From the NCBI GenBank assembly GCA_026991605.1, contig JALXBG010000171.1, positions 1 through 33,517 of the forward strand: a stretch of DNA of 33,517 bases. The letters run 5' to 3'. Origin of the DNA: Sulfurovum sp. (lineage in GTDB: Bacteria > Campylobacterota > Campylobacteria > Campylobacterales > Sulfurovaceae). A program made the translations under genes and the position numbers. The notes beneath the pieces were generated by a model, which worked only from the letters and a program-made list of their open reading frames with translations, made no database searches and was not told the origin of the DNA. This document shows, one piece after another, positions 6,487-11,627 of the stretch. Positions within the stretch are counted from its first letter, which is position 1. Each line of letters starts with the position of its first letter.

Positions 6487-7302
6487 TTAAAATACGGTAT
6501 CTTCTCCTAAAAGAAGAGATAAATCAACGTCATCTCCATACTCTTTGAAGAGCTGGCAAATTCTATCTAGCTGAATATCTGAACGTTCTAGGTAAGGATT
6601 GTTGTCTATGAACTCCCAAAAAGAGTCTGGATTTTGACAAAGCTCTTTGAGATAGTGACGGGTGATTGTGCCCATAGTTTCTTCTGTGTCTTGTAGGAGT
6701 TTCTCCCTTTGTATAGCAAAGGGTATTTTTTTTATTCCACAAGAGTCTACAAAATCACCTATTGGCTCAAAATTAACTTTTTGTTTTTTTAAAATACGCT
6801 GTAATGAAGGTTCCATAATAGAAAAAATCATTTTACAAGGATAAAGTAAAAAATTAATACGTGTTGCAATTCTTAATCTAAATGTGAGTAATGCACTCAA
6901 TTGTAATCTGGAATATTTTTTATGGTGAGGTAGATTTTGAATAAGCGCAGCTCTCGAAATTTCAATTAATGGTAATGTTTTTATCAGCAAATCAATATCT
7001 CGAACTCGACCATTTTTCTGCATGGGTAATTGTTGTACATCTGTTTTATTGTTTATGAAAAATATTCGTACTGTACCTACATATTTATTTGTTTGGTTGT
7101 GTTTGAGTAAATAAATAAAAGATTGTTTATCTTCTTGATTATAAATAAATCCGATGGATTCTAATTGATTTGGTGACATGTCATATTTAGAAGAAAAGAC
7201 TTCTTTTCGTATTTTTTTTACAGACTGGAAGTGTTGGGGAGTGGTTGCCAATATTATACTATATTCTTTGGTTAATAGGTTAATAACTTGTTCATTTTGC
7301 AT
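6487..7302 (-). CDS. LuxI/FeeM-superfamily N-acyltransferase (PEP-CTERM/exosortase-associated acyltransferase type)
   Basis: 271 residues, no signal peptide. The N-terminal half shows the acyl-amide synthase pattern of the autoinducer-synthase/FeeM superfamily: Arg32, Val-Phe 35-36 and Tyr40 near the N-terminus, then GTVRIF (about 76-81) and EISRAAL with Glu114 and Arg117. Overall it resembles the family annotated as 'PEP-CTERM/exosortase system-associated acyltransferase', which resembles N-acyl amino acid and acyl-homoserine-lactone synthases; substrate and product are unknown. No exosortase or PEP-CTERM protein occurs in the window. It is convergent with the ABC-F gene (9-base gap) and divergent from the TonB/YfiR/EAL operon across a 130-base AT-rich spacer. 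The spacer's promoter has TATAAT on the minus strand at 7335-7340. The family call is by motif memory only. Confidence 0.68.
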   Translation of the reverse strand: MQNEQVINLLTKEYSIILATTPQHFQSVKKIRKEVFSSKYDMSPNQLESIGFIYNQEDKQSFIYLLKHNQTNKYVGTVRIFFINNKTDVQQLPMQKNGRVRDIDLLIKTLPLIEISRAALIQNLPHHKKYSRLQLSALLTFRLRIATRINFLLYPCKMIFSIMEPSLQRILKKQKVNFEPIGDFVDSCGIKKIPFAIQREKLLQDTEETMGTITRHYLKELCQNPDSFWEFIDNNPYLERSDIQLDRICQLFKEYGDDVDLSLLLGEDTVF

Positions 7303-7334
7303 AAAAAAACTTTCATCAATAAAATATTGTATTA

Positions 7335-7347
7335 ATTATAGTATAGT
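7335..7347 (-). promoter_or_regulatory. -10 region of the acyltransferase gene
   Basis: On the minus strand ACTATACTATAAT contains overlapping TATACT and TATAAT hexamers, about 33 bases before the ATG at 7302. The same TATACTATA core occurs in opposite orientation in the divergent promoter at 7390-7400, so the two promoters mirror each other. Confidence 0.5.
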
Positions 7348-7363
7348 TTCACCATTGCATAAC

Positions 7364-7400
7364 TTTTTTTTGACTTTTTTTGACTTTTTTATACTATACT
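7364..7400 (+). promoter_or_regulatory. Promoter of the TonB receptor operon with phased T-tracts
   Basis: Three T-tracts of 8, 7 and 6 bases (7364-7371, 7375-7381, 7385-7390) are separated by GAC and repeat every ten bases. They run into two overlapping -10 hexamers TATACT (7390-7395 and 7395-7400). Campylobacterota sigma-70 promoters rely on periodic AT-rich DNA upstream of a -10 rather than on a -35 box, which fits this arrangement. Confidence 0.6.
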
Positions 7401-7432
7401 AACAGTAAGCATCACTCATTCTAGGATTTATT

Positions 7433-9301
7433 ATGTATGTATTTAAGACAATTATACTTTTTTTATGGCTTTTTTTTACCTATTTTCTTCAGGCATCTGA
7501 AGTAGAAACACTTCTTAATAACTATACCCATAAAAATGATTTGAGTCAGAAAACCATCGATGAAAACAAAGGTCATTTAGTCCTGTACACCAGAGAAAGA
7601 CTAGAAAAGATGCATGCCAAAACACTCAAAGATGTGTTTAAAACTGCACCAGTGATTTATTATCATGAAAATAGATATGGACTAACTGATCCTCTTTCTG
7701 GTACATCACCTAGACCGTATTTAAGTAATTTTATCCGTCTTTATATCGATGGTGTAGAAGTTACCCAAGGTTGGATGGGGAGTGGTCTGGTTCTGTATGG
7801 TGATATGAACATTGATTTTGTGGATCATATAGAGTTTTATTATGCAGTACCTTCTTTTGAGTCAGCTGTTGAGCCTGCGTATCTGACTATGTTCGTTTAT
7901 AGTAAAAATCCAAAACAAGACAGTGGAGGAAAACTGAGTCTTATAGCAGGTAGCCGGGGGCATAATGGACAAAGCATCAGCTATGGGGAAGAAAAAGAAA
8001 AGTATGCCTATATGCTTAACCTTTCACATACTGATGCAAAACGTGAGAAAATAGACAATGGCACAAGCCGTCCTCTCTCACGAGATTTTGAACGTACACA
8101 GCTTTTTTCTTATGTTAAGACTGAAAATCAAATAGCGCATTTACAAGTCATGAAAAAAAATACAGACAGTCTTGCTGGATTTAGTCTTGATGCAACACCG
8201 CTAGTTTCTCAAATAGACTACTTAAATGTTCATATGGATTATGGGATAGACTTTAATGAGCATTGGCATGCACAGATTGCGTATGAGTGGTTAAAAACTG
8301 ATATCAATCAAGAAGATGATTTTCCACTTATTATAAATAATCCTCTTTCTCCTAATCGTATTACTTCAATAACAAAAAGTAGTACATACAGTGCAGAACT
8401 AAGCTATAAAGACACCATAGGTAAACATCGTATTACTTCAGGCATTAAAGGGAGATGGAAATCGTTAGATTCTGTATCGTTAGATGGTTTTGGGAATATC
8501 CCCATAAGCTTTACAAAAGAAAATATTTTTTCGCTTTTTTTTCAAGATCAATATGCATTAAGTTCAGTAGAACTACTGACTTTTGGTGTTGAATATAGTA
8601 AACTTTATAGAAATGATTCAATTAATGATGATGCACTTTTACAACTAAGACTAGGTTATATTTTCACTTCTGAATCATGGAGTTATAAAACATATCTCTA
8701 TCGTACAATGTTTGCACTTGATCCGCTTTCCAGACAAATTAATACACAAAGTTTAAACACGGTTCCTAATCAAGTGACTAAAGCTTTTACACAAGAAGTG
8801 AGCTATACAAAGGATAACTCTAGAACAAGACTTATGGTGTTACTAATGCAAGACCAAGATGGACTTGTCCAAAATATAGGTTCAGGTAAAACACAATATT
8901 TCTTTACCATTTTTAATTATGATTATGATTTTGATATGGATAACAAAGTAAATTTACAACTCTACTATGCGCGTTATAAAGACATTTTTAATTTAGATAA
9001 ATTAGAAGACTTTAGTGGATATTTGAGTTTAAGTAACAGTTATGAAAAGTTTGATTTTTACAATGCCGTGATCTGGCATCAAAACAGTATAGATGACATT
9101 AATTACTTTGATGTGACAAGTTCTATCTCTTGGAATGCCAGTGAAAACCTCACCTTTACACTGAAAGGACAAAACCTTTTAGACAAAGCAAAAGCAACAG
9201 GTTTATTTAGAATAAGTCCAACGACAGGGAGCTTTTTAAAACCACTCTCCATCTCCCCTATAGACCAGAGAGTGACATTTGAAGTGGAGTATACATTTTG
9301 A
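7433..9301 (+). CDS. TonB-dependent outer-membrane receptor-like protein
   Basis: 622 residues. A signal peptide (residues 1-22, cleavage near QAS-EV) is followed by a plug-like domain at about 45-165, with the pattern LKDVFKTAPVIYYHENRYGL and IRLYIDGVEV typical of receptor plugs. The rest is a long beta-rich barrel of alternating aromatic strands ending in VEYTF, a C-terminal phenylalanine suited to BAM-mediated insertion. No clear TonB box is visible. The length is at the short end for TonB receptors. AGGA at 7422-7425 serves the ATG. The stop overlaps the TTG start of the YfiR-like gene by four bases, so receptor, periplasmic protein and membrane phosphodiesterase are translationally coupled. 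This suggests a sensory rather than a purely nutrient-uptake role. The ligand is unknown. Confidence 0.8.
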   Translation: MYVFKTIILFLWLFFTYFLQASEVETLLNNYTHKNDLSQKTIDENKGHLVLYTRERLEKMHAKTLKDVFKTAPVIYYHENRYGLTDPLSGTSPRPYLSNFIRLYIDGVEVTQGWMGSGLVLYGDMNIDFVDHIEFYYAVPSFESAVEPAYLTMFVYSKNPKQDSGGKLSLIAGSRGHNGQSISYGEEKEKYAYMLNLSHTDAKREKIDNGTSRPLSRDFERTQLFSYVKTENQIAHLQVMKKNTDSLAGFSLDATPLVSQIDYLNVHMDYGIDFNEHWHAQIAYEWLKTDINQEDDFPLIINNPLSPNRITSITKSSTYSAELSYKDTIGKHRITSGIKGRWKSLDSVSLDGFGNIPISFTKENIFSLFFQDQYALSSVELLTFGVEYSKLYRNDSINDDALLQLRLGYIFTSESWSYKTYLYRTMFALDPLSRQINTQSLNTVPNQVTKAFTQEVSYTKDNSRTRLMVLLMQDQDGLVQNIGSGKTQYFFTIFNYDYDFDMDNKVNLQLYYARYKDIFNLDKLEDFSGYLSLSNSYEKFDFYNAVIWHQNSIDDINYFDVTSSISWNASENLTFTLKGQNLLDKAKATGLFRISPTTGSFLKPLSISPIDQRVTFEVEYTF

Positions 9302-9753
9302 AAAAAATCTTAGTACTCTTCATTCTTACCTATGGGCAACTTGTTGCGTTAGATAAGGAGAGTACACTCAAATTTTACCAGCATATATTTACAGCAATCA
9401 CCTCTGCACATTCTGTGTTGGTGTATGTAGAAGACCCAGAGTACAGAGAGGTTTTTATGCATGCAGATAAAATTTTACTGACAAAACGTATGAAGGATTC
9501 AGATGTGATTGTACTTACAAGCAAAGCCATGCTTGAAAAAGTGTTAGATCAAAAAGAGTTGCACCCTCAAAAAGATAAAAAGCCACTTTTATTTGCCACT
9601 GATTATCATATATTAAAAGACTCAAAAGAGGTGATAGGTGCATTTTATTGGAAAAAAGGAAGAGCACAGTTATTGTTTGTTAGAAGCAGGTTGAAAGCGT
9701 ACGGTATTGTACTCTCTTCAGAATATCAAAAATTTATAATCGATGAACTATGA
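9298..9753 (+). CDS. YfiR-like (DUF4154-type) periplasmic protein
   Basis: 151 residues with a signal peptide (1-17, MKKILVLFILTYGQLVA). The start is TTG at 9298, with GTGGAG eight bases upstream and a TTGA overlap with the receptor stop. The body has the alpha/beta rhythm of YfiR proteins. Its C-terminal 40 residues (IGAFYWKKGRAQLLFV..., then GIVLSSEYQKFI) match the family pattern of a beta strand, an arginine-containing strand and an 'S-S-x-x-L' helix. In Pseudomonas, YfiR binds the periplasmic part of the cyclase YfiN and represses it. Here the next gene, overlapping by ATGA, is a membrane EAL protein, so a partner relation is likely. The assignment is by pattern, not by search. Confidence 0.62.
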   Translation: MKKILVLFILTYGQLVALDKESTLKFYQHIFTAITSAHSVLVYVEDPEYREVFMHADKILLTKRMKDSDVIVLTSKAMLEKVLDQKELHPQKDKKPLLFATDYHILKDSKEVIGAFYWKKGRAQLLFVRSRLKAYGIVLSSEYQKFIIDEL

Positions 9754-11627
9754 GAGAACAGTACTTTAATAAATTTATTATTTTTCTTATAATATTACTT
9801 ATTGGTTTTGCTGTTTTTTTACAAATATCAACAGAACACAGTACTGAAAAACTTAAAAATGAAGAGGTTTTAAAAGCAGAACAGTATGTACATCATATAG
9901 TAAAGCTTATGCAACTTCGTACACATAATAAGTTGGAAGAGACACTCAATAAGAATCCTCAATTACAAACACGGCTTAATGAGGCATTACAAGCATTTTT
10001 AACCAAGCAGTATCAATATATATTTGTGCTGAAAAAAGATGATAAAGGGCAATATCGTTTTCTATTAGATGGTGCAAAAGATGCAGAAGAATATCACTCT
10101 TTATTTATGCCACAAAGTACGCTTTTTGATGAAGTATATGAAAGTGGAAAAATGCAGATTATTCAACAAGAAGATGAAGTTAAAAATCTTTGGTTGTCGT
10201 TGGTTTATCCTATTGTAGTCAACCATAAAACAGAAGCACTTTTAGTGTTAGATTTTGCTAAGACATATGGAGAAAAATTAAGCCATTTCAACTCCCCATT
10301 AATGTTTGTGATTCGTATGATGCAAGTCTTTTTATTACTTAGTATAGTGTTGTTGCTTTTCTTAGCATATCGCTATTTTAAAGCACGTGAGGCACTGATA
10401 AAAGATAAATTAACGTCAACATATAGCAAATATTATTTATCAGAATTATTTAATCGAGATGAAGTAAGTAATTATTATGTGATACTTATAGACATTGATG
10501 AATTTAAAAATATTAATAAAAAATATGGTGAGGTATTTGGAGATAAAGTGATTATACTTTTTTCTAAAGTTATGTTAAAAGCGCTGTCCTCAGCTTCAAA
10601 AGTGGTACGTACTGGTGGAACCGAGTTTTTAGTACTCATCCCTAAAAATGAAGGAAAGATAGAGACTTTAGCGCATACGCTATTTGCAACGATGCAAAAG
10701 CAAAAATACTATTATAATAATGAAGAGATTTATTTAAGTATTTCTATGAGTGCAATGTCTACGCCTTCAAATGCAACTTCAATACAAAATATACAAAGAG
10801 TTTTAGATGAGAAATTACTTGAAGTAAAAAGTAAAGGTAAAAATGCCTTAGGGATTATTGATGCTAAGAGTTTAGAAGATATAGACTATAGCAATATAGA
10901 CTATATCAAAGAGGCATTAGAAAAAGAGCGTTTACTCTGTTTATATCAACCTATATATCATACAAAAAGTAAAGAAATCGTCAAGTATGAGGCATTGGTG
11001 AGATTAATAGATGAAAAAAATCCAGATAAGCTCATAGCACCTTTTTATTTTATGGATGTCATTAAAGGGACAAGTCAATACATTAAAATGAGTAAGTTGG
11101 TTTTTAATCATGTTTTTTCTACATTACAAAAATATCCAGAGATTAAATTAAGTCTGAATGTAGATTTAGATGATTTAGAGAATGAAGAGATGATGGAAAT
11201 GATACGTATCAATCTCGAAAAACATAAGAAAATAGCCAATAGGCTTACCTTTGAGATTCTTGAAGAACATGAAATCAAAGACTATAATAAGGTACAAGAG
11301 ATATTTAAACAATTAAAAGCGTATGGCTCAGAAATTGCATTGGATGATTTTGGAAGTGGTTATGCAAGTTACGGATATCTTATTAGACTCGATATCGATA
11401 TTTTAAAGATAGATGGTACGCTGATTAAAGAATTGGAAGAAAACCCACTACGTGCAAAAGAAGTCTTGCAATCCATTAAAGAACTAGCAGATAAATTTGG
11501 GTATGAAGTTGTTGCAGAATTTGTCTCAGATGAAAATATTTATGAGATGGTAAAGCATTTGGGTATTACTTATTCTCAAGGATATTATTTGGGTGAACCT
11601 AGACCTATCAATGAGTATATTTCCTAA
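9750..11627 (+). CDS. Membrane EAL cyclic-di-GMP phosphodiesterase with degenerate GGDEF domain
   Basis: 625 residues. One membrane segment at about 8-26, a periplasmic sensor of about 155 residues, a second membrane segment at about 185-207, then a GGDEF domain (215-365) and an EAL domain (380-625). The GGDEF signature reads GGTEF (289-293): the metal-binding/catalytic Asp/Glu at the third position is Thr, so cyclase activity is unlikely. The EAL domain looks catalytically complete: YEALVRL (EAL 414-416), Asn in LSLNVD, Glu in FEILEE, DDFG (532-535), KID (553-555), the Glu of VAEFV, and QG (610-611). Expected activity: c-di-GMP to pGpG, possibly with GTP acting at the GGDEF site. Its ATG overlaps the YfiR-like stop (ATGA). 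It is the probable output of the TonB/YfiR-like module. Confidence 0.88.
   Translation: MREQYFNKFIIFLIILLIGFAVFLQISTEHSTEKLKNEEVLKAEQYVHHIVKLMQLRTHNKLEETLNKNPQLQTRLNEALQAFLTKQYQYIFVLKKDDKGQYRFLLDGAKDAEEYHSLFMPQSTLFDEVYESGKMQIIQQEDEVKNLWLSLVYPIVVNHKTEALLVLDFAKTYGEKLSHFNSPLMFVIRMMQVFLLLSIVLLLFLAYRYFKAREALIKDKLTSTYSKYYLSELFNRDEVSNYYVILIDIDEFKNINKKYGEVFGDKVIILFSKVMLKALSSASKVVRTGGTEFLVLIPKNEGKIETLAHTLFATMQKQKYYYNNEEIYLSISMSAMSTPSNATSIQNIQRVLDEKLLEVKSKGKNALGIIDAKSLEDIDYSNIDYIKEALEKERLLCLYQPIYHTKSKEIVKYEALVRLIDEKNPDKLIAPFYFMDVIKGTSQYIKMSKLVFNHVFSTLQKYPEIKLSLNVDLDDLENEEMMEMIRINLEKHKKIANRLTFEILEEHEIKDYNKVQEIFKQLKAYGSEIALDDFGSGYASYGYLIRLDIDILKIDGTLIKELEENPLRAKEVLQSIKELADKFGYEVVAEFVSDENIYEMVKHLGITYSQGYYLGEPRPINEYIS

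Follow-up and report, generated by a model that had tools for sequence, protein, structure and literature searches.

In the RpfF/RpfR system of Burkholderia and Cronobacter, the synthase of a fatty-acyl signal (Burkholderia diffusible signal factor, BDSF) is accompanied by a GGDEF-EAL receptor, and the signal alters the turnover of cyclic di-GMP (c-di-GMP) (PMC6361424, PMC4698668). In YfiBNR of Pseudomonas aeruginosa and in systems of the HmsC type, an outer-membrane part, a periplasmic part with the YfiR fold and an inner-membrane c-di-GMP enzyme are found together (PMC4655355). Here we describe a locus that resembles both, namely four genes on a stretch of 33,517 nucleotides from Sulfurovum sp. 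(Campylobacterota; assembly GCA_026991605.1, contig JALXBG010000171.1, positions 1 to 33,517 of the forward strand; hereafter the window), in which a gene for a putative N-acyl synthase stands divergent from an operon for an apparent TonB-type outer-membrane receptor, a YfiR-like periplasmic protein and an inner-membrane protein with an EAL domain. This gene combination was not described in the literature found within a partial library.

The four genes almost certainly form one functional unit. The best explanation, to which we assign a probability of roughly one half (0.52), is a cassette in which the product of the synthase is the ligand of the receptor, the YfiR-like protein is the relay and the EAL protein is the output. 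The synthase would make an acyl-amide by joining an acyl chain, probably taken from acyl-carrier-protein, to an amine (an amino acid, for instance), and the amphiphilic product would reach the cell exterior, where it would be bound or taken up by the receptor of the cassette. The occupied receptor, or the admitted product, would then alter the action of the YfiR-like protein on the Cache-like domain of the EAL protein, which in turn would change the breakdown of c-di-GMP by the EAL domain. Within this mechanism, we infer both the identity of the product and the sign of its effect on the phosphodiesterase. An outer-membrane receptor for an acyl signal is plausible, since the outer-membrane protein FadL has been implicated in the handling of long-chain N-acyl-homoserine lactones (PMC9938287). 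The features of the locus are the following:

6487..7302, minus strand: putative LuxI/FeeM-superfamily N-acyl synthase (acyltransferase), 271 residues, divergent from the operon (TIGR03694 profile; FeeM and Autoind_synth via relatives; invariant residues)
7303..7432, no strand: divergent promoter region, 130 nucleotides (-10-like TATACT repeats at 7390-7400)
7433..9301, plus strand: outer-membrane protein of the TonB-dependent-receptor type (plug and beta-barrel), 622 residues, as suggested by a weak Plug match in the window protein and by matches of relatives
9298..9753, plus strand: YfiR-like small periplasmic protein, 151 residues, TTG start (AlphaFold2, Foldseek, hhalign)
9298..9301, plus strand: TTGA, 4 nucleotides shared by the stop of the receptor gene and the start of the YfiR-like gene, read in the sequence and kept in relatives
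9750..9753, plus strand: ATGA, 4 nucleotides shared by the stop of the YfiR-like gene and the start of the GGDEF-EAL gene, read in the sequence and kept in relatives
9750..11627, plus strand: inner-membrane protein, 625 residues, with periplasmic sensor, degenerate GGDEF and EAL phosphodiesterase (Pfam and alignment)
9831..10289, plus strand: periplasmic sensor domain, residues ~28-180, predicted Cache/PDC-like fold (AlphaFold2, Foldseek)
10614..10628, plus strand: degenerate GGDEF motif, GGTEF (alignment of operon-linked sequences)
10905..11600, plus strand: EAL domain (alignment, Pfam)

The gene coordinates of a preliminary description of this DNA agree exactly with the open reading frames, and the 130-base divergent region and the three overlapping genes that it reported are read directly in the sequence. 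Both 4-nucleotide start/stop overlaps recur in nearly all related loci that were compared. A conserved operator was sought in the divergent promoter, and no motif is shared across the intergenic regions of the relatives, which are -16 to 356 nucleotides long. The four-gene arrangement far exceeds what chance would give: it is preserved in 23/23 readable Sulfurovum loci, in which the contig extends beyond the acyltransferase gene. In each of them the synthase and the receptor operon are divergent, and the loci lie in several chromosomal settings.

The distribution of the unit was surveyed in 78 Sulfurovum genomes. The synthase occurs in 27 of them, all of which also carry the YfiR-like gene (in one case only a fragment, where the contig ends), and just two genomes have an intact member of this YfiR-like clade but no synthase, the contig ending at the receptor in both. 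On a tree of two flanking genes, ispB and hemA, at least 16 changes in the joint presence of the unit are needed, of which well-supported branches force 13, and presence is clustered no more than in label shuffles (mean 18.5 changes; 62/500 shuffles as low). Common descent alone therefore cannot produce the link between synthase and operon. Gaps in draft genomes could inflate the counts of absence; empty sites, in which the two flanks meet with the unit missing, were however read directly in many genomes, and in G116 and G106 these flanks are those of the window itself (ABC-F and polyprenyl synthase genes). In G064, assembled as a single contig, the usual site is empty and the whole unit lies ~0.9 Mb away among other genes. 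Plain synteny as the cause of the adjacency is ruled out by this patchiness, by the empty sites and by the moved unit. The preliminary description had drawn the link between synthase and operon from their divergence, and it now stands on broader ground, since the synthase always adjoins the operon in readable loci and the two were jointly gained or lost at least 13-16 times.

In the nearest relative of the window (G081, L087:9027-11442), whose flanks are 96% identical to those of the window, the synthase gene is missing and an inverted segment disrupts the operon, the 3' part of the receptor gene and the 5' part of the YfiR-like gene being inverted as one block. The EAL gene of this genome is frameshifted, and the locus may owe its state to decay, to an invertible segment or to a fault of the assembly. 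Inverted repeats were looked for where the inverted block begins and ends, and a weak pair of 14 nucleotides was all that emerged.

Judging from profiles and conserved residues, the acyltransferase is a member of the LuxI/FeeM/TIGR03694 superfamily, its LuxI/FeeM assignment having been proposed earlier. The window synthase matches the NCBIfam model TIGR03694 with E 3e-20 and 72.5 bits, which is below the curated cut-off of 111.95 bits, and the model is matched by 23/23 of its relatives (best 2e-28). Among the same relatives, Pfam FeeM is matched by 9 (best 4.6e-6), Autoind_synth by 15 (best 6.6e-5) and Acetyltransf_5 by 14, the window protein itself giving only a weak match (0.006). R32, D58, R79, E114, S116 and R117 are invariant in the alignment of 23 synthase sequences, and we take these R, D, R and E-x-S-R residues to occupy the hallmark positions of LuxI. 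Mosaic-looking synthases are present in G069, G072 and G096; for the mosaic genes at loci L063, L065 and L070, the N-terminal part of L063 is like L065 and its central part like L070. Note also that one assembly, G084 (contigs C171 and C228), holds two differing copies of the synthase and the YfiR-like gene, which may be a real duplication or the result of a mixed bin.

The product of 7433-9301 is probably a diverged TonB-dependent receptor, its relatives matching the Pfam Plug model in 18/27 cases (best 2.5e-6) and the barrel model in 6/27 (best 1.8e-7). The following protein of 151 residues has a signal-peptide-like start and no cysteines. It gave no meaningful sequence match in Pfam or the PDB, and PF13689 was not among the matches of any of its 37 relatives, even at E 1. 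PDB sequence searches with three alignments from the study (A1-A3) likewise yielded chance matches and nothing more. Its AlphaFold2 model (predicted local distance difference test, pLDDT, 87), used as a Foldseek query, found the YfiR entries of the PDB with a probability of 0.98-1.00 and a template-modelling (TM) score of 0.50-0.61, together with 3LFT and 3LKV, which are the nearest folds of YfiR itself according to the paper on the YfiR structure (PMC4655355). In a profile-profile comparison with hhalign, in which the target was built from 16 genuine PF13689 members found in the phylum, the YfiR/HmsC family was aligned over nearly the full length with 83-88% probability, versus less than 1% for unrelated controls. 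We use the label YfiR-like because of the predicted fold and this comparison, without a Pfam or PDB sequence match: the model indicates that the protein has the YfiR fold, although it falls outside the Pfam YfiR family. The earlier assignment of this protein is thus borne out by two approaches that agree, despite its failure against the Pfam model. No canonical YfiR relatives were found on plasmids.

The last protein of the operon matches Pfam GGDEF (E 5e-22) and, following it, EAL (E 2e-52). The periplasmic sensor and the EAL domain of the preliminary description are both present, and to these must be added a degenerate GGDEF domain before the EAL, which it had omitted. The periplasmic domain was modelled by AlphaFold2 with a pLDDT of 82, and Foldseek found the extracellular domain of WalK, McpU and the periplasmic domain of DvhD, so that the sensor is predicted to be Cache-like. 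The GGDEF motif reads GGTEF in the window, and its third position is never D or E in 24/24 operon-linked sequences, whereas the EAL catalytic residues E414, N470, E502, D532, D533, K553, E590 and Q610 are invariant in 31 sequences. With an intact EAL site and a degenerate GGDEF, breakdown of c-di-GMP is therefore the expected output.

Other partners were considered for the synthase. Exosortase is the usual partner of N-acyl amino acid synthases of the TIGR03694 type. An exosortase-like gene is no commoner where the synthase is present (15/27 genomes) than in the other genomes (26/51), and this equal frequency rules out an exosortase partnership as the explanation of the synthase. The exosortase-like proteins are short (~165 residues, against the 254 positions of the Pfam family) in 41/78 Sulfurovum genomes, and the match in the window's own genome (G000:C26:20062-20547) has an internal stop. 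Nor did a partner of the LuxR type come to light: the ligand-binding domain Autoind_bind was found in none of the 78 genomes. A transporter of the resistance-nodulation-division (RND) family (c14) often adjoins the unit elsewhere, yet it stays where the unit is absent; its presence at empty sites and its absence beside the window's unit rule it out as a fifth member.

Synthase and receptor vary together. Once the distances of the YfiR-like and EAL proteins are removed, synthase distances track receptor distances with a partial r of 0.54 (p 0.0005), whereas given the receptor the partial r of the synthase with the YfiR-like or EAL protein is 0.15-0.20; for the YfiR-like and EAL proteins with each other, the value is 0.72. 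Between the closely related genomes G091 and G098, identity is 94-98% for flanking proteins, 86% for the EAL protein, 72-73% for the receptor, with stretches that drop to 30-42%, and 52% for the synthase. Codon identity at positions with the same residue is 0.36-0.57 in the synthase versus ~0.75 in the flanks, and the synthase of this pair is therefore a different, older allele. This pattern suggests joint exchange of synthase and receptor specificity.

Receptors of this family are present in 52/298 sampled Campylobacterota genomes, and at most of the loci examined a YfiR-like gene comes next, followed by a gene for a GGDEF/EAL protein or a histidine kinase; at locus L187, a true PF13689 YfiR occupies the same place in the gene order. 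Since such relay operons are widespread without a synthase, the synthase is a Sulfurovum add-on to a general module with an exchangeable output. Operons of receptor, YfiR-like protein and output, the latter being GGDEF-EAL or histidine kinase, were observed at L140-L169 and L181-L189 and are apparently undescribed as a class. Within Sulfurovum itself, a histidine kinase replaces the EAL protein after receptor and YfiR-like protein at L088:8403-12198 (G121) and L089 (G093), with no synthase. In genus g11 (L091, L094-L096), a pair of YfiR-like and GGDEF-EAL genes lies beside a gene resembling tryptophanyl-tRNA synthetase, with no adjoining receptor, and the GGDEF of this pair is closer to intact.

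Several of these observations weigh against a cassette in which the synthase feeds the receptor. We see about an even chance that its product is the receptor's ligand. The window receptor falls below the Pfam Plug cut-off, with a weak match; the co-variation of synthase and receptor may stem from recombination between neighbours, as the order of coupling is the order of the genes; export of the product is left without explanation, the RND transporter being present without the unit as well; and the relay, being widespread without the synthase, is independent of it and may sense something else. This last point also fits a reading in which the acyl-amide is an output, i.e. an envelope lipid, surfactant or matrix component, the relay senses another ligand and sets c-di-GMP for surface life, and the genes are kept together since product and lifestyle switch are needed together. 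N-acyl amino acids do play such roles elsewhere, but in Sulfurovum the synthase shows no association with exosortase, and its divergence follows that of the receptor and not that of the EAL protein, a behaviour not required of an output enzyme; we regard this reading as unlikely, if the least so of the alternatives.

The product could also be a carrier of cargo (metal, elemental sulfur or lipid) that is secreted and re-imported via the TonB-type receptor, the YfiR-like/EAL pair reporting uptake. Although TonB-type receptors are importers and an amphiphilic acyl-amide might ferry a metal or a hydrophobic compound, the unit is without a binding protein, an ABC permease or a release enzyme, and no chelator biosynthesis lies beside it, which leaves the carrier improbable. 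Replacement of receptor barrel segments and of the synthase between near-identical genomes, in a patchy unit that has moved, might finally reflect a shared recombination hotspot, in which pressure from phages or predators diversifies the receptor loops, with the synthase carried along on the same mobile stretch as a passenger. A passenger, however, would not have been retained in 27/27 genomes while the genes changed their presence jointly at least 13 times; the edges of the unit showed no recognised mobility genes, its order and overlaps are constant, and synthase-less receptor operons of this clade were found solely where a contig ends or in the decayed locus of G081. We consider the hotspot very improbable. 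The cassette with the synthase product as ligand is our preferred reading over these. More specifically, and only tentatively, for we find it somewhat doubtful, the cassette may be of a quorum-sensing type, in which an acyl-amide of the LuxI superfamily is read by an outer-membrane TonB-type receptor and not by a cytoplasmic LuxR, a YfiR-like relay leads through the periplasm to a c-di-GMP phosphodiesterase, and strains exchange synthase and receptor alleles together as specificity types.

If the cassette reading is true, an orphan synthase of the LuxI/FeeM type would gain a receptor, in common chemolithotrophs of vents and sediments that are without LuxR, and the sensing of acyl signals would take place at the outer membrane, with c-di-GMP as its output. 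The uncharacterised receptor-YfiR-GGDEF/EAL/kinase operons that are widespread in Campylobacterota would become easier to understand too, as in this subset the biosynthetic gene of the ligand may adjoin. With that gene next door, the question of the ligand would be directly testable by expressing one gene.

Compared with the described systems, the locus shares parts with each and differs from each. The fatty acid made by RpfF binds a PAS domain of RpfR directly, whereas here we find a LuxI/FeeM-type synthase, an outer-membrane receptor and a periplasmic adaptor. Differently from YfiBNR, the outer-membrane part is a TonB-type receptor and not an OmpA-like lipoprotein, the enzyme is an EAL phosphodiesterase and not a GGDEF cyclase, and a synthase has been added; in addition, YfiR of P. 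aeruginosa has a disulfide (PMC4655355), whereas the YfiR-like protein is cysteine-free and fails the Pfam model. With FeeM and the TIGR03694 synthases of PEP-CTERM/exosortase systems the synthase shares its superfamily, all 23 relatives matching TIGR03694, but the window protein stays below the cut-off, the genus shows no exosortase association and the partner is a signalling operon. The hallmark residues of LuxI are invariant, yet none of the 78 genomes yielded a LuxR ligand-binding domain and the proposed receptor lies in the outer membrane. The Campylobacterota operons of TonB receptor, YfiR-like protein and GGDEF/EAL protein or histidine kinase have the same three-gene order with an exchangeable output, and no acyl synthase. 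The closest working analogy would be RpfF/RpfR combined with the tripartite logic of YfiBNR, and we claim membership of the locus in neither.

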